Positions 5,053-62,941 of a stretch of 64,000 bases of DNA are shown one piece after another. The notes under the pieces were generated by a model. The model did no database searches. It saw nothing but the letters and a program-made list of their open reading frames with translations, and had not been told where the DNA came from. Position 1 is the first letter of the stretch; every line of letters begins with the position of its first letter. The translations under genes and the position numbers were made by a program. Source of the stretch: Candidatus Sulfurimonas marisnigri. Its GTDB lineage: Bacteria > Campylobacterota > Campylobacteria > Campylobacterales > Sulfurimonadaceae. Location of the stretch: NCBI RefSeq assembly GCF_015265475.1, contig NZ_CP054493.1, positions 1,054,001 through 1,118,000 of the forward strand, read 5' to 3'.

Positions 5053-6810
5053 ATGAAAAAAATTATACTTTTTGTGTTCTCATCTATTTTACTATTTGGG
5101 GCACAACCTAAATTTTTAATGCCCGAAGAGGCTTTTAAACCAACCGCTCAAGTTAATAATAATACACAGATTGAAGCTAAAATAGAGATAGCTAAAGATA
5201 TATATTTATATAGAGATGCTGTAAAGTTAAAGATTAAAGAGGGAAGTGGTATAAGCATTAAGGATATCAAGTCACCTAAAAGCGTTGAGCACGATGGAGA
5301 TATGGTTTATCTTGATTCTCCGACTTTTGTTGTTGATTTAAAAAAAGAGAGTGGTGTTAGCGGCATTAAAACTGTAGAGTTTGAGCTTACATATCAGGGT
5401 TGCTCAGAGCAGGGTCTATGTTATGAGCCGTATACAAACTCTTTTAAACTTGACGTAGACAGTTCAAAACTTGGTTCTAGTGATGAAAAAAGCACACAAA
5501 AAGTAGAAGTAAAACAAGAGATAATTGAAGAAGTATCTGAGAGCGATTCTATAGCTAATACAATAAAGTCAGGTAATATCATTGTAATTCTTTTAACTTT
5601 CTTGGGGTTTGGTCTTTTGTTAGCTTTGACTCCTTGTGTGTTTCCAATGATACCGATTATTTCTGGAGTAATTATAAGTCAAGGTGAAGGAATTACAACG
5701 AGAAAGGCATTTGCACTATCTATTGTATATGTCCTTTCTATGGCTGTTGCTTACACGATTGCTGGTGTTTTAGCTGGTCTATTTGGCTCAAACCTGCAAG
5801 CAGCACTTCAAACTCCTTGGGTTATATACTCTTTCTCGGGAGTTTTTGTAGTACTTGCCATGAGCATGTTCGGATTTTTCGAACTTAAAGTTCCAAGCTT
5901 TTTAGTCGAAAAAGTAAGTTCAAACAGCAACCCTAGTGGTTATATTGGTGTAGCTATTATGGGATTTTTATCGGCTCTTATAGTTGGTCCATGTGTTGCA
6001 GCACCACTTGCTGGTGCTTTAGTTTACATTGGTCAAACAGGTGATGCTGTTCTTGGGGGAATGGCTCTTTTTTCTATGAGTATCGGTATGGGTCTTCCTC
6101 TTATTGTTGTCGGTGTAAGTGCTGGTAAGTTTATGCCAAAACCTGGAGCATGGATGACTATGGTTAGTGCAGTATTTGGTGTTATGATGCTTGGCGTTGC
6201 TGTTTGGATGCTGGAGCGTATTGTAGATTCTCAAATTATTACACTTTTATACTCTGTTCTTGGTATAGGTTTTGCAATCTATTTAGGTGCTCTTGAGCGT
6301 GATGGGCATATCTTTAAAAGAACTACAGCTGTAATCATCTTTATTTACTCTATATCTCTTTTTATTGGAGTTATGGCTGGTTCAAGCAGTATGACAAAAC
6401 CATTGGGATTTTTAAACTCTTCACCCTCTACAGTTGACAACCAGATACTTTCTTCACATGTAAAGTTTGAAAAGGTAACTTCAGTTAAAGAGCTAGATAC
6501 GCTTTTAGCTAAGAATAGTGGCAAAAAAATAATGCTTGACTTTAGTGCTGATTGGTGTGCATCTTGCAAAGAATTGGACGAGATTACGTTTGCAGATGAA
6601 AGAGTAAAGGTTAAACTTGGGGAGTTTGTTCTTATTAGAGCAGATTTGACAGATAATGAGCAGGCTCAAAAAGAGCTAAGTAAAAAATATGGTGTTTTTG
6701 GACCACCGGTAATGATATTTTTTGATGAAAATTTAAAAGTATTAAGCGCTAAAACTATTGTAGGTTTTATAGAGCCAGATGAGTTTTTGGCTCATCTTGG
6801 TAAGATTTAA
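5053..6810 (+). CDS. dsbD: Thiol:disulfide interchange protein DsbD
   Basis: Carries reducing equivalents from cytoplasmic thioredoxin across the inner membrane to periplasmic partners, for example in cytochrome c maturation. The 585-residue protein has a signal peptide (MKKIILFVFSSILLFGA), an N-terminal DsbD-alpha domain with the cysteine pair in YQGCSEQGLCYEP, a central multi-span domain with the expected cysteines in LTPCVFPMIP and VGPCVAAPL, and a C-terminal thioredoxin-like domain with DWCASC (C502 and C505). All three redox-active cysteine pairs are present and the length fits the full-length family. The 3' end overlaps the convergent aminotransferase gene by 4 bp. Consistent with the many c-type cytochromes in this window. 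Confidence 0.95.
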   Translation: MKKIILFVFSSILLFGAQPKFLMPEEAFKPTAQVNNNTQIEAKIEIAKDIYLYRDAVKLKIKEGSGISIKDIKSPKSVEHDGDMVYLDSPTFVVDLKKESGVSGIKTVEFELTYQGCSEQGLCYEPYTNSFKLDVDSSKLGSSDEKSTQKVEVKQEIIEEVSESDSIANTIKSGNIIVILLTFLGFGLLLALTPCVFPMIPIISGVIISQGEGITTRKAFALSIVYVLSMAVAYTIAGVLAGLFGSNLQAALQTPWVIYSFSGVFVVLAMSMFGFFELKVPSFLVEKVSSNSNPSGYIGVAIMGFLSALIVGPCVAAPLAGALVYIGQTGDAVLGGMALFSMSIGMGLPLIVVGVSAGKFMPKPGAWMTMVSAVFGVMMLGVAVWMLERIVDSQIITLLYSVLGIGFAIYLGALERDGHIFKRTTAVIIFIYSISLFIGVMAGSSSMTKPLGFLNSSPSTVDNQILSSHVKFEKVTSVKELDTLLAKNSGKKIMLDFSADWCASCKELDEITFADERVKVKLGEFVLIRADLTDNEQAQKELSKKYGVFGPPVMIFFDENLKVLSAKTIVGFIEPDEFLAHLGKI

Positions 6811-7865
6811 CTTTTTATTGTATGAACTATAAAGTCTTGCTCTTCTTCTGTTAGAAAAGCACTCATCGGTAGTGACATGATTTGTGAGGATACTTTCTCA
6901 CTAACAGGGTAGTTACCCTCATTGTAGCCTAGCTTTTTGAATGCTTCTTGAAGATGAAGAGGAATAGAATAATAAATAATAGTTGGAATCTCTTCATCTC
7001 TTAACTTCTCCATCATAGCCTCTCTATCTTCAACTCTTATGGAATAGTGAGAAAAAACACATATATTTGATTCTGAAATTTTTGGAGTTATAACATTAGC
7101 ATCTTCAAGCAGGTCATTGTACCTTGTCCCTATCTCATCACGAAGTTTTATCTCATTATCAAAATATTTTAGTTTTACACCCAGAACCGCCGCTTGAACC
7201 TCGTCAAGATAGCCATATATTTTATTTTCCAATAGAGCTCTGATTTTAGCTGCCAGCTCCTCATCGTTTGTAAAAACTGCTCCACCGTTGCCATAAGCAC
7301 CCAGTGGTTTTGATGGGTAAAAACTTGTATAACCTATAGTTGAGAGGTTGCAGGATTTTTTGCCATTGTAAGTTGCGCCAAAGCTCTGAGAAGCATCTTC
7401 TATTACAGGTAAATCATACTCTTTTGCTATAGAGTTAATGCTGTCCATATCTGCACACTGTCCAAAAAGTGAGACCGGTATAATTACTTTTGTTTTTTCA
7501 GTTATTGCACTTCTGATTTTTACAGGGTCGATATTGTAATTTTCCTCGTCTATATCTACGAAAATAATATGTGCACCCAAAAGTGAGATAACTTCTGCAG
7601 TTGAGCTTGATGCAAATGGAGTGGTAATGACCTCATCTCCATGACCAATATTTAAAGCAACCAAAGAGAGCATAAGGGCATCAGTACCACTTCCGCAGCA
7701 AATAGCATGATCAGCTTCAGTGAAAGAAACTAAGTTTTTTTCCAGAGATGTTAACTTTTCTCCGCGGATAAACTCCGCTGAACTAAATACCTCTAAAACT
7801 TCACTATCTATCTCTGACTTATACTCTCTATATTGTGCTTTTAAATCTACAAAATCAATATTCAT
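6807..7865 (-). CDS. DegT/DnrJ/EryC1/StrS family sugar aminotransferase
   Basis: A PLP-dependent aminotransferase of the sugar nucleotide family, 352 residues. The internal aldimine lysine is K186 in YPSKPLGAYGNGG; the cofactor-binding GSGTDALMLSL (about residues 58-68) and IEDASQSFGA (about 150-160) are intact. These enzymes aminate keto-sugar nucleotides used for LPS, capsule or flagellin glycans. The start codon overlaps the stop codon of lpxB as TAATG, so the two genes are translationally coupled, and a role in lipid A or surface sugar synthesis is likely. The exact substrate cannot be read from the sequence. Confidence 0.9.
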   Translation of the reverse strand: MNIDFVDLKAQYREYKSEIDSEVLEVFSSAEFIRGEKLTSLEKNLVSFTEADHAICCGSGTDALMLSLVALNIGHGDEVITTPFASSSTAEVISLLGAHIIFVDIDEENYNIDPVKIRSAITEKTKVIIPVSLFGQCADMDSINSIAKEYDLPVIEDASQSFGATYNGKKSCNLSTIGYTSFYPSKPLGAYGNGGAVFTNDEELAAKIRALLENKIYGYLDEVQAAVLGVKLKYFDNEIKLRDEIGTRYNDLLEDANVITPKISESNICVFSHYSIRVEDREAMMEKLRDEEIPTIIYYSIPLHLQEAFKKLGYNEGNYPVSEKVSSQIMSLPMSAFLTEEEQDFIVHTIKS

Positions 7866-47588: not shown

Positions 47589-47873
47589 ATGGCAAGAGTA
47601 GTTTATAGTGAAGAGTTCAGAATAGAAGCGGTGAAGCAAGTTACAAAAAATGGGTATAGCATTACAGATACTGCTGATAGACTAGGAGTTCATCCTGACT
47701 CACTAAGAAACTGGATAAAAAGATTAGAATCTCCCCAAGCAATACAAAAGCATCAAATATTAGATGAATCTCAAATAGAGATAAAGAAACTCCAAAAAGA
47801 GCTCAAAAGAGTTACAGAAGAGAGGGACATACTAAAAAAGGCCGCGGTGTACTTTGCAAGCCACACAAACTAA
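47589..47873 (+). CDS. IS3-family transposase OrfA
   Basis: A 94-residue protein with an N-terminal helix-turn-helix (YSEEFRIEAVKQVTKNGYSI and DRLGVHPDSLRNWIKR) followed by a leucine-zipper-like helix (about 60-85). OrfA binds the element ends. Its last codons contain the slippery heptamer A AAA AAG at 47834-47840, in the phase needed for -1 frameshifting into orfB. Confidence 0.95.
   Translation: MARVVYSEEFRIEAVKQVTKNGYSITDTADRLGVHPDSLRNWIKRLESPQAIQKHQILDESQIEIKKLQKELKRVTEERDILKKAAVYFASHTN
47834..47840 (+). promoter_or_regulatory. Programmed -1 frameshift site of the IS3 element
   Basis: The heptamer A AAA AAG is in the zero frame of orfA (codons CTA AAA AAG). After a -1 slip, the frame from 47840 stays open through orfB (GGC CGC GGT GTA CTT TGC), giving the OrfAB transposase as known for IS3-family elements. 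Confidence 0.85.
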
Positions 47874-47932
47874 AATATGCTTTTATAAAAGTATATAGTG
47901 AAGTTTATTCAGTTCATAGACTTTGCAAAGTT

Positions 47933-48745
47933 ATGCAAGTACACCGTAGCGGATATTATCAGTGGCTAAATCAGCCGATCTCAGATAGAGAACTTGAAAA
48001 TAAAGAATTGCTAATACAGATTAAAGATGCATTCAAAGCATCAAATGGTGTTTATGGTCACAGGAATATTCATAAAGACCTCAAAGAGTTAGGTATTCAT
48101 GTAAATAAAAAGCGAGTAGCTAGACTCATGAGTGAAGCTAAACTGTATGGGGTAGGCACTTATAAACGTAAGCCATATAGTAAGGCTGGTCCAGCTCACA
48201 AAGCTTATCCAAACCATCTTCATCAGTGTTTCATTTCAGGGAAGCCAAATGACACATGGGTGAGTGATATAACTTACATTAGAACTAAAGAAGGATGGAT
48301 ATTTTTAGCCACTGTTATTGATTTATATAGTAGAAAAATTATTGGCTGGGCAACTGGCCATCGCCAAACTACACCGTTAATTGTTGAAGCATTAAAAATG
48401 GCCACAACAAGACTAAGTAAGGATGACAAGGTCATACTTCACTCAGATCAAGGGAGTCAATATGCTTCTTACGACTATAAAAAGTTTGCAACTTCACATA
48501 ATATTACTCTGAGTATGAGTCGAAGAGGAAACTGTTATGACAATGCAGTTGCCGAGAGCTTTTTTAAGACTCTAAAAAAGGAGCTTGTTAGAAAACAGAT
48601 ATTTTTAACGAGAGAAATTGCAGCTTCTAAAATATTTGAATATATAGAAATGTTCTACAACTCAAAAAGAAGACATAGTTATTTAGATTATATTTCACCG
48701 AATGAGTTTGAAAAAAGGTATAATCAAAAGTCTTTAAAAAGTTAG
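47933..48745 (+). CDS. IS3-family transposase OrfB (DDE integrase)
   Basis: From the ATG at 47933 it has 270 residues, but the open frame continues back to the slippery site at 47840 (LKYAFIKVYSEVYSVHRLCK), so the active product is the OrfAB fusion. The DDE catalytic residues are in WVSDITYIRT, LHSDQGSQYAS and NAVAESFFKTLKKE. The sequence is intact, so the element may be active. Confidence 0.95.
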   Translation: MQVHRSGYYQWLNQPISDRELENKELLIQIKDAFKASNGVYGHRNIHKDLKELGIHVNKKRVARLMSEAKLYGVGTYKRKPYSKAGPAHKAYPNHLHQCFISGKPNDTWVSDITYIRTKEGWIFLATVIDLYSRKIIGWATGHRQTTPLIVEALKMATTRLSKDDKVILHSDQGSQYASYDYKKFATSHNITLSMSRRGNCYDNAVAESFFKTLKKELVRKQIFLTREIAASKIFEYIEMFYNSKRRHSYLDYISPNEFEKRYNQKSLKS

Positions 48746-50809: not shown

Positions 50810-51949
50810 ATGGATAGTGAAATTATAAAGTGGATATGGCAACATAGAGATTATCCTCATTTCAAGTATGATAAAACAAAACTTTCAATACTTATCAGCG
50901 AAATCGATTATCAAAGGGGTATCCTCGATGGTATGTCTAAACTTTTTAATCAAGAAGACATTAGAAATATAGAAATAGATACCTTAACAGATGAAGCAAT
51001 AAATACATCCTTAATAGAGGGTGAAGTATTCAAAAGGGAAAGTGTACGCTCCTCATTTAGGAAAAAACTGGATAAAGACTTTGATGGAAGAAGTGATAAA
51101 TACTCAACAGCTGCAACAGATTCTCTTGTAGAGATACTTTTAGACTGTAGTTTAAATAAAGACCCTCTAACGCTTGATAGGCTTCACGGTTGGCATAACT
51201 GCCTCTTTGAAAATAGATATAGTAGGTTAGATCGAATTAATATTGCCAAATTTAGAACTCATGATGATATGGAAGTAGTCTCTGGTGCAATAGGACATGA
51301 AAAAGTACATTACAAAGCTGTACCATTATCAAGCATGGATGAAGATATTGAAAACTTTTTAGAATACTGTAACAGTAGTGATGAAAACATTTATATTAAG
51401 TCTGCAATAGCTCATCTTTGGTTTGTATCTATCCACCCTTATGATGATGGAAATGGAAGGATATCAAGAGCAATTACTGATTCCATTTTATCTAAACAGA
51501 CACTTCATACAGAGTTTAAACTCTATTCTGTTTCAACAGCTATTAATAGTGATAGAAAAGCTTATTATGATGTATTAGATAAGACAACAAACCTCTTTAA
51601 AAATAGAAATTTTGACATAACTTTATGGTTAGACTGGCATTTGAATACTTTAAAAAGTGCAATGATAGACGCATTGAAAAATATTGAATATCTTGTAGAA
51701 AAAACAAAGTTTTGGGATATTCATAGGAAGCAATCTCTAAATGAAAGGCAGATAAAGGTTTTAAATAAAATACTTGATAAGGGTGCAGAAAACTTTGAAG
51801 GTGGTATCAATACAAAAAAATATATATCACTTACTAAAGTCAGTAAGGCTACAGCGGTAAGGGATATTAATGAGCTTTTAGAGTTTGGGTGCATCAAGCA
51901 AGTTCAAGGAACACAAGGGAGAAATGTAAGGTATAGAGTCCTGGTTTAG
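50810..51949 (+). CDS. Fic-family AMP transferase, class II, with C-terminal wHTH
   Basis: A 379-residue protein. An N-terminal DUF4172-like helical region is followed by the inhibitory motif TSLIEG (T/SxxxEG, about residues 64-69), the mark of class II Fic proteins. The catalytic loop is HPYDDGNGRISR with H209. The last 60 residues form a winged helix (LTKVSKATAVRDINELLEFG), so it may bind DNA. Fic enzymes transfer AMP to target proteins. It is a single gene with AAAGG ahead of the ATG, at the edge of the accessory region. Confidence 0.9.
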   Translation: MDSEIIKWIWQHRDYPHFKYDKTKLSILISEIDYQRGILDGMSKLFNQEDIRNIEIDTLTDEAINTSLIEGEVFKRESVRSSFRKKLDKDFDGRSDKYSTAATDSLVEILLDCSLNKDPLTLDRLHGWHNCLFENRYSRLDRINIAKFRTHDDMEVVSGAIGHEKVHYKAVPLSSMDEDIENFLEYCNSSDENIYIKSAIAHLWFVSIHPYDDGNGRISRAITDSILSKQTLHTEFKLYSVSTAINSDRKAYYDVLDKTTNLFKNRNFDITLWLDWHLNTLKSAMIDALKNIEYLVEKTKFWDIHRKQSLNERQIKVLNKILDKGAENFEGGINTKKYISLTKVSKATAVRDINELLEFGCIKQVQGTQGRNVRYRVLV

Positions 51950-52935: not shown

Positions 52936-52950
52936 TGCCACTTGTGGCAT
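52935..52950. promoter_or_regulatory. Palindromic operator ahead of the HTH-Fic/Doc pair
   Basis: ATGCCACTTGTGGCAT is a perfect inverted repeat (7-bp arms, 2-bp spacer). It overlaps the likely -10 element CATAAT (52948-52953) and lies 22 bp before the start of the HTH gene, as expected for autorepression of an antitoxin-toxin operon. Confidence 0.75.
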
Positions 52951-52971
52951 AATACCTCAAAAGGAGATGTT

Positions 52972-53352
52972 ATGAAACGCATAGACTTAATTAATCAAAT
53001 CATTAACAGAAAAGAGCAACTTGGTATTACTGTAGAAAACCTTGCTAAGCTTAGTGGTGTTGGTGTAAGAACTATAAACAGGCTTTTAAAGAATGAAGAT
53101 GTTAAGTTAAGTACGATTGAGCATGTAACAAACTTCCTAGGTTTAGATTTTGCTGGTAATGAGCAAATACCTGTTAATGAACTAAAGAAACAAAGAGCAC
53201 ACGAGAAAGCTCTCTTTTTAGCTTCTATAGTTCAAGGCACATCAGCGCTTGAGATGCAAGGCTTAGAGGATGATAGTTTGAATCGTATTATTGCCACATA
53301 CGAAAAAGAGTTTTTAGATGGAGAGTATAAAAATACTCTTTGGGTAGCTTAA
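52972..53352 (+). CDS. XRE-family HTH protein, putative antitoxin of the Fic/Doc gene
   Basis: A 126-residue protein starting at ATG 52972 with AAGGAG at the ideal distance (an in-frame ATG at 52942 lies inside the operator region and has no ribosome binding site). The Cro/CI-like helix-turn-helix is in LGITVENLAKLSGVGVRTINRLLKNEDVKLST (about residues 17-48, shown in parts). The C-terminal half is helical (LASIVQGTSALEMQGLEDDS). It is followed one base later by the Fic/Doc gene. The pair resembles the 'mobile mystery protein' A/B arrangement. Confidence 0.8.
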   Translation: MKRIDLINQIINRKEQLGITVENLAKLSGVGVRTINRLLKNEDVKLSTIEHVTNFLGLDFAGNEQIPVNELKKQRAHEKALFLASIVQGTSALEMQGLEDDSLNRIIATYEKEFLDGEYKNTLWVA

Positions 53353-53353
53353 G

Positions 53354-53956
53354 ATGATACACTCTACAAAGCCAATAGATGATGCTACACCGCTTGATGA
53401 TATATCAGGACTAAAACTGCCAAGTTATAAAGTTTACACCCTCAAAGAGATATATATTGCAGAAGCTAACAACATTGCAATCGCAACACTAAAGTACTTA
53501 TCTGCCCCACCATCTAAAAAGGTAGCCCCGTTTTCTTATGAATGGCTATCTTCACTTCACGAAGAGATGTTTGGCAATGTATGGGATTGGGCAGGTAAAT
53601 TTAGACAAGTAGAACTCTCTATCGGCATAAAAGCTTATCAAGTTCCAACTGCACTCAAAGAGCTATCAGATGATATCGCTTACTGGGACAAGAATAAAAC
53701 CTTTGATATCTACGAAATAGCTACTCGTATACACCATAGAGCTGTTCAAATACATCCATATAAAAATGGTAATGGTCGTTGGTCTAGAATGTTGGCGAAC
53801 ATATATCTTAGGCAGAATGGTTCTCTCCCTGTAAAGTGGCAAGAGGACTTACTCTCAAAAGAGAATCCTAATAGAGACGAGTATATACAAGCGCTTAAAG
53901 AAGCTGATAGTGGGAACTACACCAGTTTAATTGCTATGCATCGTAGTACTTATTGA
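53354..53956 (+). CDS. Fic/Doc family protein, mobile mystery protein B-like
   Basis: A 200-residue Fic/Doc protein with an intact catalytic loop HPYKNGNGRWSRML (H134). The segment LHEEMFGNVWDWAGKFR and later RIHHRAVQIHPY match the family called mobile mystery protein B, which is often on mobile DNA next to an HTH partner. It could AMPylate or phosphorylate a host target. It has no visible inhibitory T/SxxxEG motif in its own N-terminus, so restraint may come from the HTH neighbour. Confidence 0.88.
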   Translation: MIHSTKPIDDATPLDDISGLKLPSYKVYTLKEIYIAEANNIAIATLKYLSAPPSKKVAPFSYEWLSSLHEEMFGNVWDWAGKFRQVELSIGIKAYQVPTALKELSDDIAYWDKNKTFDIYEIATRIHHRAVQIHPYKNGNGRWSRMLANIYLRQNGSLPVKWQEDLLSKENPNRDEYIQALKEADSGNYTSLIAMHRSTY

Positions 53957-53967
53957 GGAAAGTATCA

Positions 53968-54177
53968 ATGATAAAGTTTGATAAAAAGGCTATGGAAAAG
54001 TTTAATCAGATTCCAGATGATATGAAGGCAAAGATACTTTCTAATGTTTATTGTTCCAGCTGTAAAGATACAGTGAAGATTATTGATTTTACAGCAACAA
54101 TAAGTCGAGAAGACTTGCTTTTAAAAGGTAAATGTGAGAAGTGTGGAACTGAAGTAGCTAGACTAGTTGAGATATAG
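53968..54177 (+). CDS. Small zinc-ribbon protein
   Basis: A 69-residue protein from ATG 53968 with GAGGAAAG ahead; the TTG at 53953 inside the preceding gene is a poorer choice. Two CxxC knuckles (YCSSCKD and KCEKCGTE) separated by about 30 residues form a zinc ribbon. It follows the Fic/Doc gene closely and overlaps the HIRAN gene tail by 15 bp. Partner and role are unknown. Confidence 0.7.
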   Translation: MIKFDKKAMEKFNQIPDDMKAKILSNVYCSSCKDTVKIIDFTATISREDLLLKGKCEKCGTEVARLVEI

Positions 54178-54765
54178 CATTATCTTTATAGAAAATCTCT
54201 CTTTATCCCACTCTAACTTTTTAATAAATCCAAAAAGCTCATTACCATTACCAAGGATATACGATGGTGTATAGTTCATCTTTTTTGGAAGATAGCCTAA
54301 TTTAATATTGTCAGTTGTAAGTACTTTAACAGCTCTGTTATCATATGGATTATTCTTTTCGCTAACTACCACTACTTTATCGTTGATTTGCAGACTTTGT
54401 ATAAGTTCACTCATGTTGTCGATGAACTGAGTTCCTGCAAGATAAAATTCACCAAGACATACACCAAAAGAACTGTCAGGCAGTTTTATCTCTTTTAGAT
54501 AGTGCAAAAACAGTTTAGCTGTGATTTTTGAAAGCTTTTTTTGTTCTATAAGTAAACTTTTGGTTGGTAGCCTGTAAAGCTCCATAAAACTATGGATATC
54601 ATCGGTATTGATATCGCCGTCTTTTATCTTTTTTAGAAAGTATTTTCGTATGGATTTATACTCTTTATGAGATTGACCTTGTTTAGTTAGTTTATACAAC
54701 AGCTTATTGTCTGTCTGTTCATACATTGATTTAAATGTGCTCTCTAGTGATAGATTTATTATCAT
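54163..54765 (-). CDS. HIRAN-domain protein
   Basis: A 200-residue protein. The C-terminal half (about 100-200) is a HIRAN domain: FYLAGTQF at the start, VVVVSEKNNPYDNRAVKVLT in the centre, and IKLGYLPKKMNY. HIRAN domains bind DNA ends or damaged DNA and occur on replication-fork remodelers and in phage-related contexts. The N-terminal half is helical and unrecognised. AGGAG is well placed before the ATG. The upstream gap to the WYL gene contains one operator-like site (54806-54825), so it is probably under the same control. Confidence 0.85.
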   Translation of the reverse strand: MIINLSLESTFKSMYEQTDNKLLYKLTKQGQSHKEYKSIRKYFLKKIKDGDINTDDIHSFMELYRLPTKSLLIEQKKLSKITAKLFLHYLKEIKLPDSSFGVCLGEFYLAGTQFIDNMSELIQSLQINDKVVVVSEKNNPYDNRAVKVLTTDNIKLGYLPKKMNYTPSYILGNGNELFGFIKKLEWDKERFSIKIMLYLN

Positions 54766-54805
54766 GATAGACTCCTTCTATATCTAACAGTATAGAAAAA
54801 GTATT

Positions 54806-54825
54806 GGACTACATTATGTCCGTTT
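54806..54825 (+). promoter_or_regulatory. Operator-like site 1 (HIRAN gene side)
   Basis: GGACTACATTATGTCCGTTT. The near-palindrome ACATTATGT is nested in GGAC-N8-GTCC. The same 20 bp (17 identical) recurs in opposite orientation at 55768-55787, on the other side of the WYL regulator gene. It lies just upstream of the HIRAN gene. Confidence 0.75.
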
Positions 54826-54827
54826 TA

Positions 54828-55757
54828 TTATTTAATCAGATGTTCTATCTGCCTTGATAAAAATTTATCAGCATTGTCTTTTGCTTTAAGTGCAAGATCT
54901 TTTGGAGAAACAACAATGAGATCTGGCATCCATTTTTTCACTTCATGAAGTATTTCTCTATCAGATGTAGCAAGTAGTGCAATGTCCATGCTTCCATCAC
55001 TATATATTTTAACTATACGCTGTGTAGTAGCTATCGGTCTTCGCTCAAAATACTTAGCAATATCAGAAGACGCATTTAGTATAACTTCAAAGTACTCGTT
55101 GTTAGGTTCAAACCAAGCGTTTATAGAACGTTCTAGTATATTATGGGCTCTTGATTCAGGTTTAAATACTTCATCCGTAACTTCTAAATGAGTGATATCT
55201 TTAAAATAAAATGTTTTTAAACTACTTGTTAAGATCTCTTCTCCGTACAGATACCAATAACCTTCAAAAGAAACTATCTTATATGGCTTTACATGACGGA
55301 CTTTATCGTTGTAGTTAAAGATTACTATTAGATTCTCTGCGATGGCCTTTTCTATCTTGTTAAATAGCTCTAAACTCTCTGAAATATCTTCTATTATGGT
55401 TTTGGAATAAATAGGGTTATTGGAATGATTTTGAAGTTTAGAAAAAAGATGTTTTGCTTTTGAACCAAAACCTGCACCGATACTTTGTGCTATATTTTCA
55501 AGCATCTCTATTACCAACATCTCTTCAGGTGTACGCTCTTTAGTAATGTTGTAGCCTTTTTGCATTCGCCATTTACGTCCATCTTTCTCTATTGGAAATC
55601 TTATAAGCCTTTCGTTAAAATCTCTCTGTATAGTTTTAGAAGATACATTGAATTCTTCTGATAAATCACTAACCGATAAACTCTCCCCCTCATATAGTCT
55701 TTGTAAAATGATCGTTAATCTAGTAAGTATTTTGTCATAATCGTGAAGTGCTGCCAT
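54828..55757 (-). CDS. WYL-domain transcriptional regulator (BrxR/CapW-like)
   Basis: A 309-residue regulator: N-terminal helix-turn-helix (SVSDLSEEFNVSSKTIQRDFN, about residues 27-47), a WYL domain (about 135-215) with VSFEGYWYLYGEEI, and a C-terminal extension. Proteins of this layout (BrxR, CapW) repress phage-defence operons and are released by a signal bound in the WYL domain. AGGAG precedes the ATG. Operator-like sites flank the gene on both sides, one toward the HIRAN gene and one toward the methyltransferase operon. That placement suggests autoregulation plus control of both arms. Confidence 0.92.
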   Translation of the reverse strand: MAALHDYDKILTRLTIILQRLYEGESLSVSDLSEEFNVSSKTIQRDFNERLIRFPIEKDGRKWRMQKGYNITKERTPEEMLVIEMLENIAQSIGAGFGSKAKHLFSKLQNHSNNPIYSKTIIEDISESLELFNKIEKAIAENLIVIFNYNDKVRHVKPYKIVSFEGYWYLYGEEILTSSLKTFYFKDITHLEVTDEVFKPESRAHNILERSINAWFEPNNEYFEVILNASSDIAKYFERRPIATTQRIVKIYSDGSMDIALLATSDREILHEVKKWMPDLIVVSPKDLALKAKDNADKFLSRQIEHLIK

Positions 55758-55767
55758 ATTTTCTCCT

Positions 55768-55787
55768 AAACGGACATTATGTTGTCT
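55768..55787 (-). promoter_or_regulatory. Operator-like site 2 (regulator and methyltransferase operon side)
   Basis: Read on the minus strand it is AGACAACATAATGTCCGTTT, 17 of 20 identical to site 1. It lies 10 bp before the WYL gene start and ahead of the rightward operon, a suitable place for repression of both. Confidence 0.75.
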
Positions 55788-55823
55788 AAGAAGTATTATA
55801 GAATAATTTCAAAGGATTTGAAA

Positions 55824-55970
55824 ATGGAACTACCTGGTTTTATAATTATCGGTATTTTAGTTTGGTCAGTATTTACCATTGGAAGTGTAGCACTTCGTAA
55901 TCCATTTACATTTATATTTGCGATGATTGGGCTAGGGTTTCTATTTGGGGATGATGATTGTGATATATAA
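55824..55970 (+). CDS. Small membrane protein, 48 residues
   Basis: From ATG 55824 (AAGGA ahead) it encodes two hydrophobic stretches, FIIIGILVWSVFTIGSVAL and FTFIFAMIGLGFLFG, and an acidic end DDDCDI. The ATG at 55779 lies in the operator-like site and has no ribosome binding site. It is the first gene to the right of the WYL regulator and may be part of the defence locus, or a chance frame. Confidence 0.5.
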   Translation: MELPGFIIIGILVWSVFTIGSVALRNPFTFIFAMIGLGFLFGDDDCDI

Positions 55971-56012: not shown

Positions 56013-56018
56013 TATAAT
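56013..56018 (+). promoter_or_regulatory. Candidate -10 element of the methyltransferase operon
   Basis: TATAAT, 25 bp before the methyltransferase start. No convincing -35 box at standard spacing, which is common in Campylobacterota promoters. Confidence 0.45.
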
Positions 56019-56042: not shown

Positions 56043-58682
56043 ATGACAATAACTCAGATAGAACAAAATATAAAGAATATAATAGGTAATTTTTCACAAG
56101 ATGACTTTATATTTGACTTACTATTAGCATATGGTGAACCTAAAGCTACTATCAGCAGATTGAGAAAGGGAGATCTGAATCAGCTTGAAAGTAAGGGCGA
56201 ACTTACACACAGAAAAAAGCTGTTTTTCAAAGTTGCCACTGATCATTTACATTCAACTGTTGATAAACTAAGAAATGATAGTGCAACTCTAAAGCAGAAA
56301 CCTAGATTTATCATTGTTACTGACTATAAAACACTACTTGCATATGACACAAAAACTACAGATACCTTAGATATAGAGCTAACAGACCTTACAAAACACT
56401 ACGACTTCTTTTTACCTTGGGCTGGTATGGAGAAGTCCACTCATCAAGCAGAAAACCCCGCTGATGTTAAAGCATCTGAGAAGATGGCAAAACTATATGA
56501 TGAAATTTTAAAAGACAATCATATAGAGTCGGAAGAAGATGTGCATGCATTAAATGTATTTTTAACAAGATTACTCTTTTGTTATTTCGCAGAAGATTCT
56601 GATATATTTACAGATAATATCTTTACTCACTCAATCTCTTCTCATACACAAGCCAATGGTAGTGATGTAGGTACTTACTTAGATAGGCTTTTTGATGTGT
56701 TTAATACCGATGAAAAAGATAGAGATGCTTCACTTCCTGAGTATCTTAAAGCTTTTCCATATGTAAATGGTGGATTGTTTAGAGATAAGTTTACTATACC
56801 TACCTTTACGATGAAATCACGAAACATTTTATTAGAGATTGGTAGTTTAAATTGGTCAGAAATCAATCCAGATATTTTTGGTTCGATGATACAAGCAGTC
56901 GTAAAAGATGAGTATCGTGGTGATATGGGTATGCACTATACTTCAGTTCCAAACATTATGAAAGTGATGCAACCACTATTTTTAGATGAGCTTTATGAAG
57001 AGTTTGAAAAAGCAAAAGGCAATACTAAAAAGTTAAACTTACTGCATTTAAGACTTCAAAACCTTAAAATATTTGATCCAGCTTGTGGGTCTGGTAACTT
57101 TTTGATTATTGCATATAAAGAGCTTAGAACATTAGAAATGTTGATTTTTAAAGAGGGTGGACTGTTAATCTCTCCAAGTATTAAATTAACACAATTTTAT
57201 GGAATAGAGTTAGATGATTTTGCTCATGAGGTCGCGATACTTTCTCTTTGGTTGGCTGAACACCAAATGAATATGTTGTTTAAAAAAGAGTTTGGGACTG
57301 TTCCTCCTGCATTACCGCTTCAAGATGGTGGTAATATAGTTCAGGGTAATGCCACAAGACTTGACTGGGAAGAAGTTTGTCCTAAAGTGGATGGGGATGA
57401 GATTTATATACTTGGTAATCCTCCATATCTTGGGTCTAGCATGCAGAATAAAGAACAAAAAGCAGATAAAGAGTTTGTCTTTGATGGTTTGAATAACTTT
57501 AAGAATCTTGATTACATTGCTTGCTGGTTCTTAAAAGGTGCTAAATATATTCAGAAATCAAATGCTCAGCTTGCCTTTGTTTCAACCAACTCAGTTAGTC
57601 AAGGTGAACAAGTTTCGATGCTATGGCCAAATATCTTCAAGAAGAATATTGAAATATTTTTTGCTTATCAGTCTTTCAAATGGACTAATAATGCAAAAGG
57701 TAATGCAGGAGTTAGTGTTGTTGTTATTGGTCTTAGAAATATATCTAAAGAATTGAAATTTCTCTTTATTAATACTATTAAGCATGAAGTGAAAAATATT
57801 AATGCATATTTAGTAAACAGTAACAATATAATCATTGAAAAAAAACAATCCTCAATTTCTTTTTTACCATCAATGGTTTCTGGAAATAAGCCTGTTGATG
57901 GTGGTAACTTGATTTTAAGTGAAGAGGATAAAAATAAATTATTGGAAAAAGAACCTAACGCCAATAAGTTTTTGAAGAAATTATTAGGTGCTAGTGAACT
58001 GATGAGTGGACAAAATAGGTACTGTTTATGGATAAATGATTCTGACTTAGAAGAAGCTCAACAGTTCAAGTTTATTAGAGATCGTATTGAGAGTAATAGA
58101 CAGTTTCGGTTGGCTAGTAGAGACTCTGGCGCAAACAATCTTGCTAATTCTGCTCATCAGTTCAGAGACTTTTTTTCAACTAGGCGCACAAGTATAGTAA
58201 TCCCACAAACAGGCTCTGAACGACGAAAATATTTACCTATAGGGTTTATTAACTCGGATACTATTGTTTCAAATGCTGTTAGAATCATATATGATGCAGA
58301 AATTTGGATAATGGGATTACTTTCATCTAATTTGCATATCCTTTGGGTGAGAGCTGTTGCTGGAAGAATGAAAATGGATATGCAATATTCTAATACATTA
58401 TGCTACAACACTTTTCCATTCCCAAATATTAACAAAAAACAAAAAGAAGAAATAACAGAACTTGTACTTAATATACGAGATGAAAGAGAGCAACACACAG
58501 AAAAAACATTGGCTCAAATGTACGATCCAGATAAAATGCCACAAGGCTTAAAAGAAGCTCATCATCAATTAGATTTAGCCATAGAAAAATGCTACAGAAA
58601 TAAACCTTTTGAAAATGATGAAGAAAGACTTGAATATCTGTTTAAACTTTATGAAGAGATGACTGTAAGTGAGAATAAATAA
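56043..58682 (+). CDS. Adenine-specific DNA methyltransferase, MmeI-like
   Basis: An 879-residue class I SAM-dependent methyltransferase. Motif I is DPACGSGNFLIIAY (residue 345 on), and motif IV is GNPPYLGSS (NPPY from 459), which marks N6-adenine methylation. A helical spacer (about 130-320) and a C-terminal target-recognition region (about 620-830) follow the MmeI layout. The N-terminal region lacks a visible PD-ExK endonuclease motif, so it seems to be a modification-only enzyme. AGGAAATGTGA precedes the ATG. The stop is directly followed by the DUF2971 start. The methylation presumably marks self for the helicase-nuclease genes downstream. Confidence 0.9.
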   Translation: MTITQIEQNIKNIIGNFSQDDFIFDLLLAYGEPKATISRLRKGDLNQLESKGELTHRKKLFFKVATDHLHSTVDKLRNDSATLKQKPRFIIVTDYKTLLAYDTKTTDTLDIELTDLTKHYDFFLPWAGMEKSTHQAENPADVKASEKMAKLYDEILKDNHIESEEDVHALNVFLTRLLFCYFAEDSDIFTDNIFTHSISSHTQANGSDVGTYLDRLFDVFNTDEKDRDASLPEYLKAFPYVNGGLFRDKFTIPTFTMKSRNILLEIGSLNWSEINPDIFGSMIQAVVKDEYRGDMGMHYTSVPNIMKVMQPLFLDELYEEFEKAKGNTKKLNLLHLRLQNLKIFDPACGSGNFLIIAYKELRTLEMLIFKEGGLLISPSIKLTQFYGIELDDFAHEVAILSLWLAEHQMNMLFKKEFGTVPPALPLQDGGNIVQGNATRLDWEEVCPKVDGDEIYILGNPPYLGSSMQNKEQKADKEFVFDGLNNFKNLDYIACWFLKGAKYIQKSNAQLAFVSTNSVSQGEQVSMLWPNIFKKNIEIFFAYQSFKWTNNAKGNAGVSVVVIGLRNISKELKFLFINTIKHEVKNINAYLVNSNNIIIEKKQSSISFLPSMVSGNKPVDGGNLILSEEDKNKLLEKEPNANKFLKKLLGASELMSGQNRYCLWINDSDLEEAQQFKFIRDRIESNRQFRLASRDSGANNLANSAHQFRDFFSTRRTSIVIPQTGSERRKYLPIGFINSDTIVSNAVRIIYDAEIWIMGLLSSNLHILWVRAVAGRMKMDMQYSNTLCYNTFPFPNINKKQKEEITELVLNIRDEREQHTEKTLAQMYDPDKMPQGLKEAHHQLDLAIEKCYRNKPFENDEERLEYLFKLYEEMTVSENK

Positions 58683-59843
58683 TTGAAAGATAACATACCT
58701 GAAATAAATAGTTACTTTGGTTTCAACAAATGCAAAGAACATAAAAATATTTATATCAGTGATCAACTACCTTGTCCTCATCCAAATTGTAAGCATGGAT
58801 TACAGTCAGAAACTTTTATTGATAATGGAATCCCATACTCTAATAAAATAATATATATAAGGAAAAGTTGGAAAGGCTTCAATGGAGAGAATAAATATAT
58901 TTGGATTAGAGAAGATGAGTTAATAATATATATCAGTAATATTATATATGATGAAGTATTTCAAATAATCAAGGGTAAATCATCAGATAGTATTTATCAT
59001 TATACAACATTGGATACTTTGAATAAAATACTAGAATCAAATGAATTGTGGCTGACTGAATGGAAATGTACTAATGATAAAGTTGAAATAAAGCATGGTT
59101 TAAAAATTACTGATGAATTTAATCGTGATAGATTAAAGATAGAAGATAACCTGAAAACAAATAATTATTTTATCTCCTCATTCTCTTATGAAATTAATAA
59201 TGTAACACTCTTTGATAGATATGCAGACAAAGCACAAGGTGTCGCAATAGAGTTTGATACTAAATTTGATTGCATTCCTAGAGAAAATTTTTGGTATAGA
59301 AATGCTGAATTTATGAAACTAATGCCCGTGATATATGAAGAAGATATTCAACGAAAAATAATACAGTATGCCTTTTCAATATATGAAAATACAAAAGAAT
59401 GGTTAGCTGAATCAAAGGAGCATTATAACTTTGATGGAAAAGTGGTTTCAAAGAAAGAAAGAAAAAAAATGTTAGAAAAGTTTTTTATAACAACAATTGA
59501 AGAAATTATTTCATTTTTTAAACATCCATCATTTAAAGATGAACGTGAAATTCGATGGTTATATAGATTTGACAGTGATTTTATAAAAGAACATAAATTT
59601 AATTTAAAAATGAAAAAACTTAATGATAAAAGCTATTATACTTCAACTGATGCACATGATATGTCATATCAAAATTATTACAATCTAGATGAAAAATCAA
59701 AGATAAACTTACCAATAAAAAGTATTATACTAGGGAGTAAAGTTGAAAATCAAAAAAAAGTTATTAGTGAGCTAAATGAACGGTGCAAGATGTTTGGGTT
59801 TCAAAATATTGAAATTAGAGTGTCAGAAATACCATACAGATAA
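58683..59843 (+). CDS. DUF2971-domain protein with N-terminal zinc-finger-like segment
   Basis: A 386-residue protein with a TTG start directly after the methyltransferase stop; no other start fits before the conserved part, so translational coupling is likely. The first 40 residues hold CKEHKN and LPCPHPNCKHG, a possible zinc finger. The DUF2971 domain (about residues 100-370) begins IYHYTTLDTLNKILESNELWLT with FISSFSYEINNVTLFDRYA and GVAIEFDT, and continues with FKDEREIRW. DUF2971 proteins are frequent in phage-defence and toxin contexts; their activity is unproven. Its position inside the methyltransferase-helicase operon is unusual. Confidence 0.75.
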   Translation: MKDNIPEINSYFGFNKCKEHKNIYISDQLPCPHPNCKHGLQSETFIDNGIPYSNKIIYIRKSWKGFNGENKYIWIREDELIIYISNIIYDEVFQIIKGKSSDSIYHYTTLDTLNKILESNELWLTEWKCTNDKVEIKHGLKITDEFNRDRLKIEDNLKTNNYFISSFSYEINNVTLFDRYADKAQGVAIEFDTKFDCIPRENFWYRNAEFMKLMPVIYEEDIQRKIIQYAFSIYENTKEWLAESKEHYNFDGKVVSKKERKKMLEKFFITTIEEIISFFKHPSFKDEREIRWLYRFDSDFIKEHKFNLKMKKLNDKSYYTSTDAHDMSYQNYYNLDEKSKINLPIKSIILGSKVENQKKVISELNERCKMFGFQNIEIRVSEIPYR

Positions 59844-59859
59844 ATTAAAGAGAGAGCAT

Positions 59860-61779
59860 ATGCAAAACATAGTAGAAGTAAGTTACGAACAAACTGGAAA
59901 AAGTAAATCAACAAACGAATTTGGTATGCGAGATATGCAAGAGAAAGCTTATGAGCAAAGAGATGCAAGGTTCTTACTATTAAAAGCACCACCAGCTTCT
60001 GGTAAATCAAGAGCATTGATGTTTATAGCACTTGATAAGCTTATAAACCAAGGACTAAAAAAAGTTATAGTTGCAGTTCCTGAAAGATCAATCGGTGGTT
60101 CCTTTGGAGCTACCGATTTAAAGTCTTTTGGCTTTTATGCCAATTGGGAAGTTAATGAAAAATACAACCTTTGTACTTCCGAAGAGTCTACAAGCAAAGT
60201 GGAAGCATTTAAAGAGTTTCTCTCTGGTGATGAGAAAATTTTAATCTGTACGCATGCCACACTAAGATTTGCATTTGATCATCTTGATGACTCAAAATTT
60301 AACAACACACTTTTAGCAATAGATGAGTTTCACCATGTATCAGCTGATGGACAAAATATACTTGGTGAACTTATTCGCTCAGTTATGGAAAAATCTTCTG
60401 TTCATATAGTAGCTATGACTGGTTCATATTTTAGAGGGGACAGTGTACCTGTTCTTATGCCAGAAGATGAAGCTAGATTTACTAAAGTAACTTATAACTA
60501 CTACGAGCAATTAAATGGATATGAGTTTCTAAAATCCCTCGGTATAGGGTATCACTTTTATCAAGGTAGATATACGAGTGCTATTAAAGAGATACTAGAT
60601 ACTGACAAAAAAACCATACTGCACATTCCCAATGTAAATGCCGGTGAATCCACTAAAGATAAGTATAAAGAAGTTGGAACTATTTTAGATATTATTGGTA
60701 CTGTTGAAGAGACTACTGAAGATGGTGTAATGATAGTTAAAAGACATGGAGATGGAAAGCTTTTAAAAGTCGCAGACCTTGTAAATGATGATAAAAAAGA
60801 AAGAGATAAGTTAGCAACATATTTACGTAACATGACGAGTGTAGATGATATGGATTTGATTATCGCATTAGGAATGGCAAAAGAGGGTTTTGATTGGCCA
60901 TATTGTGAACATGCACTGACTGTTGGATATAGAAGCTCACTGACTGAAATCATACAGATTATAGGACGAGCTACAAGAGATAGCAATAATAAAAATCATG
61001 CACAATTTACAAATCTTATAGCTCAACCAGATGCACAAAATGATGAAGTAAAAGTATCTGTAAATAACATGCTTAAAGCCATAACGGCATCATTACTCAT
61101 GGAACAAGTATTAGCCCCTAGTTTTAAGTTTAAAGCTAAATTTGATAGTGGTTTAGATCTAAAAACAAGAGGTGAGATAGCTAGTCGTATGGGTATAAAA
61201 GAACCAAGTAGAAAAAGAATTGGTGATATTATAGAAAGTGACCTAAACGATATAAAAGCAGCGATACTTCAAGATGAAAAGATGCCACAAATAGTAACAG
61301 GAGGTGTCGATCCTGAAGTGGTAAATACAGTGATAATACCTAAGATAATAATGAACAAATACCCTGATATAACAGAGGATGAGGCAAAAGAGATAGCTCA
61401 AAGAGTAGCAGTAGATTTTGTGACACCTGAGTTAGAGATCACTGCGGATAAGAAGTTTGTAAAAATGGCAGATAAGTTTATTAATATAGAAGACTTGAAT
61501 ATTGACTTAATAAATAAGATAAATCCTTTCCAAAAAGCCTATGAGATACTTTCAAAGTCGGTAACTACAGGCGTTCTAAAACTTATACAGGAGTCTATAG
61601 AATCAACTAGAATCAAAATGGATATAGATGAAGCAAAGATACTATGGCCTAAAATTCAAACTTTTATAAAAAAGCATGGTAAAGAGCCAGAGTTAAAATC
61701 TAATGATCCACTGGAAAAAAGAATGGCTGAGTGTATCATATATCTAAAAGAAGAGAAGAGAAAACGAGCTAATGGATAA
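59860..61779 (+). CDS. SF2 DEAD/DEAH-box helicase of the defence operon
   Basis: A 639-residue superfamily 2 ATPase from ATG 59860 (AGAGAGAG ahead; the in-frame ATG at 59776 lies within the previous gene). Motifs: Walker A APPASGKS (about residue 43), LAIDEFHHVS (motif II, about 152), VAMTGSYF (motif III), and IIQIIGRATRD (motif VI, about 365). The C-terminal 200 residues are helical and unrecognised. There is no nuclease domain, which may be supplied by the next gene, overlapping by 8 bp. It resembles the translocating subunit of ATP-dependent restriction systems. Confidence 0.85.
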   Translation: MQNIVEVSYEQTGKSKSTNEFGMRDMQEKAYEQRDARFLLLKAPPASGKSRALMFIALDKLINQGLKKVIVAVPERSIGGSFGATDLKSFGFYANWEVNEKYNLCTSEESTSKVEAFKEFLSGDEKILICTHATLRFAFDHLDDSKFNNTLLAIDEFHHVSADGQNILGELIRSVMEKSSVHIVAMTGSYFRGDSVPVLMPEDEARFTKVTYNYYEQLNGYEFLKSLGIGYHFYQGRYTSAIKEILDTDKKTILHIPNVNAGESTKDKYKEVGTILDIIGTVEETTEDGVMIVKRHGDGKLLKVADLVNDDKKERDKLATYLRNMTSVDDMDLIIALGMAKEGFDWPYCEHALTVGYRSSLTEIIQIIGRATRDSNNKNHAQFTNLIAQPDAQNDEVKVSVNNMLKAITASLLMEQVLAPSFKFKAKFDSGLDLKTRGEIASRMGIKEPSRKRIGDIIESDLNDIKAAILQDEKMPQIVTGGVDPEVVNTVIIPKIIMNKYPDITEDEAKEIAQRVAVDFVTPELEITADKKFVKMADKFINIEDLNIDLINKINPFQKAYEILSKSVTTGVLKLIQESIESTRIKMDIDEAKILWPKIQTFIKKHGKEPELKSNDPLEKRMAECIIYLKEEKRKRANG

Positions 61780-62941
61780 AGATACAATACTTGATGATAT
61801 TTTTGCTAGTGATATTTCAGGCATCTTAGATATAAAAGTAAAGAATCCAGTTGTTACAGCTGATGACAGGTTAATAGCATCTTTTGAAGAGATAAACACT
61901 TTTTACGAAACAAATAACCGTGAGCCAGATAAATCTGCAGATATGAACGAGAGAGGACTGTTTTCTAGATTAAAAGGAATACGTGAAAATCCTGATAAAA
62001 AAGCTTCACTACAAAAATATGACAGATTTGATTTGCTTTCATCTAGTGAATCAGAAGTTGAGATAAACACTATCGATGATATTTTTGCTAATGACGAACT
62101 AGGTATATTTGATAATGATGATGAAGATATTTTCACTTTAAAAAATGTACCTAAGTTTGATAAAGATAGAGCAGAAGCTGACATGGTAGCTAGGCGAGAA
62201 AGATGCGAAGATTTTGATAAGTATGAGCATCTATTTATAGCATGTCAAGAGGATTTGAAGTCTGGGAAAAGACGTATAGTAGATTCAATCGAGAGTAAGC
62301 TAGATATTGGAGTGTTTTGTGTACTGGATGGAATACTACTCTATATAGCTGATATAGAAGCACCTAAGCGAGGAAATAGTGGTAAGATCAACAGAAGAAC
62401 CACTCTTATCTTTGAAAATGGCACACAATCTAACATGCTACTTCGATCTCTTGGAAAAAGACTTAGAGATAGTGGAAAAATGGTTACAGAACTTGAAGAA
62501 AGAGTGATGGATAGACTAAAAGGGATTACTCATGATGATATCTCAAGAGGACATATATATGTTTTAAAGTCCCTAAGTACTGATGATAGAATTAGTACAA
62601 AAAAAGATTTATATAAAATTGGTTTTTCAACAGTACCTGTAAATGAAAGAATTAAAAATTCTGTTAATGAACCTACATATTTAATGGCTCCAGTACATGT
62701 ACTCCGAGATATTGAAGTGTTTAATTATGATGCACAACATTTAGAAGGTTTGATGCATAAGTTCTTTGGTAATAGTTGTTTAGATGTGACTATCGCAGAT
62801 GAAAATGGAGAAATACATAGACCCAGAGAATGGTTTTTTGCTCCATTGGCTATTATAGATGAAGCTATAAAGCTTATCATCAGTCGTGATATTGTGAACT
62901 ATCGATATGATTCTATTAATGAAGATATTGTGAGTAGGTAG
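61772..62941 (+). CDS. GIY-YIG nuclease-like protein (T5orf172/MUG113 type)
   Basis: A 389-residue protein. The C-terminal part (about 258-370) is a GIY-YIG fold of the T5orf172/MUG113 type: GHIYVLKSL, DLYKIGFS, arginine in VNERIKN, catalytic glutamate in LEGLMHKFF, and REWFFAPLAIIDEAI. The N-terminal region is acidic and contains a duplicated short motif, DDIFASDISGILD (about residue 6) and DDIFANDELGIFD (about 95), which may dock a partner. Its start overlaps the helicase gene, so both are expressed together; the likely role is the DNA-cutting subunit. Confidence 0.85.
   Translation: MDKDTILDDIFASDISGILDIKVKNPVVTADDRLIASFEEINTFYETNNREPDKSADMNERGLFSRLKGIRENPDKKASLQKYDRFDLLSSSESEVEINTIDDIFANDELGIFDNDDEDIFTLKNVPKFDKDRAEADMVARRERCEDFDKYEHLFIACQEDLKSGKRRIVDSIESKLDIGVFCVLDGILLYIADIEAPKRGNSGKINRRTTLIFENGTQSNMLLRSLGKRLRDSGKMVTELEERVMDRLKGITHDDISRGHIYVLKSLSTDDRISTKKDLYKIGFSTVPVNERIKNSVNEPTYLMAPVHVLRDIEVFNYDAQHLEGLMHKFFGNSCLDVTIADENGEIHRPREWFFAPLAIIDEAIKLIISRDIVNYRYDSINEDIVSR

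Follow-up and report, generated by a model that had tools for sequence, protein, structure and literature searches.

Arrangement of the WYL locus and its two sites

Analysis of the window, a 64,000-nucleotide stretch of the genome of Candidatus Sulfurimonas marisnigri, demonstrated a gene for a WYL-domain regulator flanked by two short inverted sites, with a HIRAN-domain gene on one side and a rightward operon on the other. The features of the locus, in window coordinates, are as follows.

54163..54765, minus strand: HIRAN-domain protein, 200 aa (Pfam HIRAN, 1.8e-12)
54789..54794, minus strand: predicted -10 hexamer of the HIRAN gene, TATACT, at a spacing of exactly 12 nt from the site 1 core
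54806-54825, plus strand: site 1, 20-mer GGACTACATTATGTCCGTTT
54807..54820, minus strand: site 1 core GACATAATGTAGTC, facing the HIRAN gene
54828..55757, minus strand: WYL regulator, 309 aa, with a DeoR-like HTH, a WYL domain and a C-terminal WCX-like region (Pfam)
55768-55787, minus strand: site 2, 20-mer AGACAACATAATGTCCGTTT
55773..55786, plus strand: site 2 core GACATTATGTTGTC, a perfect GACA-N6-TGTC, facing the small ORF
55795..55800, minus strand: predicted -10 hexamer of the WYL gene, TATAAT, with the alternative TATTCT a few bases upstream
55799..55804, plus strand: predicted rightward -10 hexamer, TAGAAT, 12 nt after the site 2 core
55824..55970, plus strand: predicted small membrane protein of 48 aa, MELPGFIIIGILVWSVFTIGSVALRNPFTFIFAMIGLGFLFGDDDCDI, first gene after site 2
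56043..58682, plus strand: MmeI-like methyltransferase, first large gene of the rightward operon
58683..62941, plus strand: rest of the rightward operon, comprising a DUF2971 protein, a DEAD helicase and a T5orf172 protein
From 62942: SbcD, after the T5orf172 gene in the rightward operon

The rightward operon continues past the window end with SbcC and more genes, and a DUF2779 protein is encoded downstream of it (window coordinate 69738-71222, past the window end). Two Fic-domain genes, one of them paired with an XRE-type gene, adjoin the HIRAN gene (50810-51949, 52942-53352, and 53354-53956), and an XRE-Fic pair also adjoins the WYL gene in the sister genome (locus L118). An IS3-like two-ORF transposase lies upstream of the island (47589-48745). 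The 48-aa ORF had previously been uncalled; its product ends in GDDDCDI, is predicted to be a membrane protein and gave no Pfam match. Counterparts next to the WYL element are conserved in L118 and in the related locus L127, and more weakly in L120. As judged from its conservation in L118 and L127, this ORF encodes a real protein.

The sequence-only reading of this DNA had described two near-identical inverted 20-bp sites around the regulator gene, and both their coordinates and their agreement at 17 of 20 positions were borne out. The interval from the WYL stop (54828) to the HIRAN start (54765) contains site 1, and the core of site 2 ends 15 bp ahead of the WYL start (55757). In one respect the sequence-only reading needs correction: the first rightward gene is the 48-codon ORF and not the MmeI-like gene. 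Both sites point outward from the WYL gene, each ahead of a gene: read toward the adjoining genes, site 1 is AAACGGACATAATGTAGTCC (leftward) and site 2 is AAACGGACATTATGTTGTCT (rightward). The element that they have in common is a pseudo-palindrome, GACA-N6-TGTC, followed by a -10 hexamer exactly 12 nt on; site 1 deviates by one mismatch, with AGTC in place of TGTC in the -10-proximal half-site. The spacing to the -10 had gone unnoticed in the sequence-only reading. The site 2 core also sits between the WYL promoter, with its -10, and the WYL ribosome-binding site, and the predicted WYL -10 overlaps the rightward one.

With up to three mismatches allowed, sites 1 and 2 were the sole copies of the 20-mer both in the 64-kb window and in the 2,488,728-base genome, and zero matches were obtained in 100 dinucleotide shuffles of the window. 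The 14-mer core followed by 12 nt and TAnnnT occurs without mismatch exactly twice in the genome, at sites 1 and 2; when one mismatch was allowed, nine genome matches were found versus five in the reversed control. Two further genomic matches to the 14-mer (1188143 and 2201711) lie inside ORFs and were discarded. A genome-wide count for scatter of the motif over unrelated genes thus did not refute the reading of the two sites as a shared operator.

Conservation of the element and its association with the WYL clade

Named relatives of the WYL protein at 52-94% identity were found mostly in Sulfuricurvum, and also in Sulfurospirillum and other Campylobacterales. When the regions upstream of WYL in the window and in ten orthologues were aligned, GACA and TGTC were kept within divergent surrounding sequence, and this upstream copy of the element persists among orthologues sharing about 70% identity. 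Like the window, L127 (71%) has a copy on either side of the WYL gene, but the HIRAN gene (6480-7079) and the small ORF have swapped sides, and a copy still precedes each of them. In L118 (94%), the HIRAN gene is absent; site 1 is kept in register as GACATAATACTGTT-N12-TATACT, and its half-site next to the -10 has decayed. On these comparisons, both the swap in L127 and the decay in L118 are as expected if each site serves its own gene.

WYL relatives with the same element near their genes range from 41 to 94% in WYL identity. A protein search of 60 same-genus genomes returned many relatives at 41-45% identity, and the element ccaGACATAAAGCTGTC precedes several genes around them. Exact copies were present in 8 of the 11 genomes of this set that have the WYL clade versus 3 of the 48 that lack it (Fisher p 1e-5). 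The loci of more distant same-genus WYL proteins (L048-L052, approximately 30-37% identity) contained zero copies, which indicates that the element belongs to a WYL sub-clade.

The spacing to the -10 was determined on 69 distinct sites from genomes other than that of the window. In 45 of them TAnnnT stood at offset 12, against 2.8 expected, and across 2000 shuffles the maximum over all offsets was 13; no TAnnnT peak was found on the other side of the core. The distance from the element to the gene start is narrow, typically 40-48 nt. Some Sulfuricurvum copies upstream of WYL carry no clear TAnnnT at offset 12. At this spacing, the -10-proximal half-site TGTC would span -28 to -25 and the whole element approximately -38 to -25, and the core contains no recognisable -35 hexamer.

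A class-wide search covered 397 genomes and used a strict signature, GACAYNANGNTGTC-N12-TANACT. The search yielded 20 sites in 13 genomes of seven genera, with 0 in the reversed control. Of the 13 signature genomes, 11 encode a close WYL protein (E 1e-95 or better), whereas none of 58 sampled genomes that lack the signature does (p 3e-11). Among the 13, G002, G005 and G021 had contributed to the consensus, as probably had G437, the contig of which corresponds to a Sulfuricurvum locus of the consensus set; with these contributors left out, a close WYL protein was present in 7 of 9 signature genomes versus 0 of 58 (p 4e-8). Seventeen of the 20 strict sites lie 0.3-12 kb from the WYL gene. A WYL protein of the clade was not detected in G383 and G040, which carry the signature as an orphan site. 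The orphan site of G040 (L194) precedes an AAA ATPase gene, and the surroundings of that of G383 (L193) closely resemble the AAA ATPase promoter of G068.

Genes directly after the element in other genomes encode Cas12a (L039), a PDDEXK_4 nuclease, IetA-related AAA ATPases, SIR2, a cyclic-phosphate receiver domain, FtsZ-like proteins, LRR proteins, DUF2779, a histone-deacetylase-family protein, and a 5'-nucleotidase; this list relies on automatic start calls, of which single ones may be wrong. The Cas12a gene of L039 (6179-9133) translates into 985 aa, possibly incomplete, and a WYL gene of the same clade lies nearby. In L124, a Cas1f gene follows the element at a somewhat longer distance, and Cas1 is probably among the downstream genes. 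DUF2779 proteins recur beside the WYL clade (L042, L186, L188, and L192). A gene for a protein of approximately 700 aa also recurs after the element (L038, L045, L100, L115, L186, and L192); it contains two AAA-domain stretches where scanned (L038, L186, and L192), and PADLOC calls it IetA-like in L038.

Predicted regulon and sign of regulation

It had been proposed from the letters of the window that a shared operator would place the HIRAN gene, the regulator and the defence operon in one regulon. For the first two members, the conserved element, the swap in L127 and the decay in L118 support well that the WYL regulator and the HIRAN gene share the predicted operator, and the small membrane ORF is supported as a member of the predicted regulon. 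Membership of the defence operon was not supported. The MmeI-like gene is second after site 2; 72 bp separate it from the small ORF, and a candidate -10 of its own, TATAAT, lies at 56013-56018. A terminator scan between the small ORF and the MmeI-like gene flagged none, so read-through from site 2 into the MmeI operon is possible. In G010, G055, and G039, relatives of the helicase lack both a nearby core and an adjoining WYL gene of the clade, and the defence operon was accordingly rejected as an obligate partner.

According to Pfam analysis, the regulator has the make-up of a WYL-domain transcription factor, with HTH_DeoR/HTH_11 and WYL above cut-off and WCX just below it, and W168-Y169-L170 is invariant in 14 relatives. 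A single-sequence search of the PDB gave weak matches only, and a profile of the clade was therefore used; it found DriD and PafBC among PDB sequences and did not find BrxR or CapW at E 0.01. When the predicted WYL model (mean pLDDT 75, with weak parts) was compared with known structures, DriD came first (Z 12-16, best 15.8), and BrxR, PafBC, and CapW followed at Z 12-13. These scores are close, so the fold alone does not decide between the known types.

The comparative data indicate that sites 1 and 2 are real and conserved and form a predicted operator embedded in promoters. By analogy with known WYL systems, the regulator probably activates the outward genes and represses its own gene. The WYL protein encoded between the two sites would bind both, as copies of one element that forms part of an outward-facing promoter in each case; the element would occupy approximately -38 to -25, and a TAnnnT -10 follows at 12 nt. 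In the manner of DriD and PafBC, this protein, which is probably homodimeric, would bring in or adapt the housekeeping RNA polymerase. PafBC binds only in the presence of RNA polymerase, and DriD contacts sigma region 4. Site 1 would drive activation of the HIRAN gene, and site 2 that of the gene for the 48-aa membrane protein, possibly with read-through into the MmeI operon. Since site 2 lies between the WYL -10 and the ribosome-binding site, a dimer bound there would damp WYL transcription. The trigger is likely single-stranded DNA or DNA damage, an expectation drawn solely from DriD and PafBC.

The spacing to the -10, the position at -38 to -25 and the lack of a -35-like sequence point to a WYL regulator of the activating type. 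Sigma-70 promoters of Campylobacterota normally have no -35 box (C. jejuni, PMC3656092); the missing -35 therefore does not prove dependence on an activator, and only the fixed spacing argues for it. A PafBC-like spacing together with a DriD-like placement at a bidirectional promoter favours an activator over a repressor of the BrxR/CapW type.

Repression of that type is nevertheless the strongest alternative, although we consider it unlikely. A WYL dimer would keep the HIRAN gene, the small ORF and its own gene off until a phage-derived ligand releases it. The WYL regulators beside defence genes that have so far been proven to bind inverted repeats there, BrxR and CapW, are repressors (PMC9122601, PMC9122588); site 2 is placed to repress WYL itself, as is the BrxR box after its own -10, and the alignment scores of the BrxR and CapW structures come close to those of DriD. 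Occlusion needs no fixed spacing, yet the outward promoters show a single 12-nt spacing. The element also covers approximately -38 to -25, whereas CapW boxes overlap the -10 and the BrxR box lies downstream of it (PMC9122601, PMC9122588), and the profile search of the PDB favours DriD and PafBC.

There is only a slight chance that another regulator, or an alternative sigma factor, travels with the islands and acts on the element while WYL is a mere neighbour. The association is statistical, and G383 and G040 carry the signature with no WYL of the clade detected. Against this stand the very strong co-occurrence and proximity across several genera and families, the copy directly upstream of WYL in the orthologues and a geometry typical of WYL activators. 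It is highly improbable that site 1 is a weak intrinsic terminator with an incidental likeness to site 2: the scan flagged 54805-54822 on the plus strand, but the stem has only five pairs, no plus-strand gene ends there, 17 of 20 positions are shared with a site in another context, the HIRAN promoter is in register, and the relative of site 1 in L127 also precedes HIRAN. The least probable reading, that the sites mark the ends or scars of a mobile element by which the WYL gene was brought in, draws on their inverted orientation around one gene and on the nearby mobile DNA of the IS3-like genes, but it is largely refuted by the comparative data, where single copies and pairs with promoter spacing occur at many other genes elsewhere, and there is no transposase between the sites.

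The reading of the regulator as an activator that represses its own gene may extend to the clade, which we propose more tentatively. Activators of the WYL clade, in the class of the window genome, could run a horizontally assembled defence regulon through a portable cassette, GACA-N6-TGTC-N12-TAnnnT, with a switch responding to single-stranded DNA or DNA damage; the regulon would include Cas12a and probably Cas1 in some genomes, and its sign would be opposite to that of BrxR and CapW. The promoter rule is simple enough for regulon prediction from sequence alone, and it flags unannotated candidate defence or stress genes such as the 48-aa membrane protein, DUF2779 and the LRR proteins. It would also link the promoters of CRISPR genes in some relatives to a probable DNA-damage sensor.

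Comparison with known WYL regulators

DriD is a WYL homodimeric activator of the non-SOS DNA damage response in Caulobacter crescentus; its sites overlap the -35 at a fixed distance from the -10, and transcription runs both ways from the driD promoter, the divergent operon being activated (PMC12340889). The regulator described here resembles DriD in its domain plan, in inverted GAC...GTC half-sites, in a site over the -35 at a fixed distance from the -10 and in a bidirectional promoter of its own, which is predicted here. The core is GAC-N8-GTC versus GAC-N7-GTC in DriD, identity is approximately 17% over the structural alignment, and the targets here are often defence-type genes beside the regulator.

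The mycobacterial PafBC motif, TGTCGG-N10-TAnnnT, is equivalent to TGTC-N12-TAnnnT (PMC8151990, PMC5656591). PafBC is a heterodimer that acts by sigma adaptation, and TGTC followed by TAnnnT 12 nt later is a promoter rule common to this distant system and the WYL clade. Unlike PafBC, the element here has an inverted half-site, GACA, and there is one WYL gene with no second fused or adjacent WYL; the protein is therefore probably a homodimer. The DriD/PafBC-type arrangement, an element at a fixed distance from the -10 over the -35/-26 region, was found at both window sites. SiwR of Mycobacterium smegmatis is a WYL homodimer that activates an adjacent operon via a palindrome including -26 (PMC10693628); its target genes and palindrome differ from those described here, and it comes from Actinobacteria.

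BrxR (BREX) and CapW (CBASS) are like the present regulator in lying at defence genes with a box near their own promoter. An inverted repeat on or after the -10, which is characteristic of these repressors, is present at the WYL gene's own promoter and absent at the outward promoters. The defence-island WYL regulators studied so far, BrxR and CapW, keep defence genes off, and the sequence evidence for this clade suggests the opposite logic. A literature search on WYL regulation in these bacteria returned no relevant paper, which does not by itself prove that none exists. Activator sites of WYL proteins are known; new here would be the inverted element with PafBC spacing, the predicted defence-type regulon and the class to which the window genome belongs.
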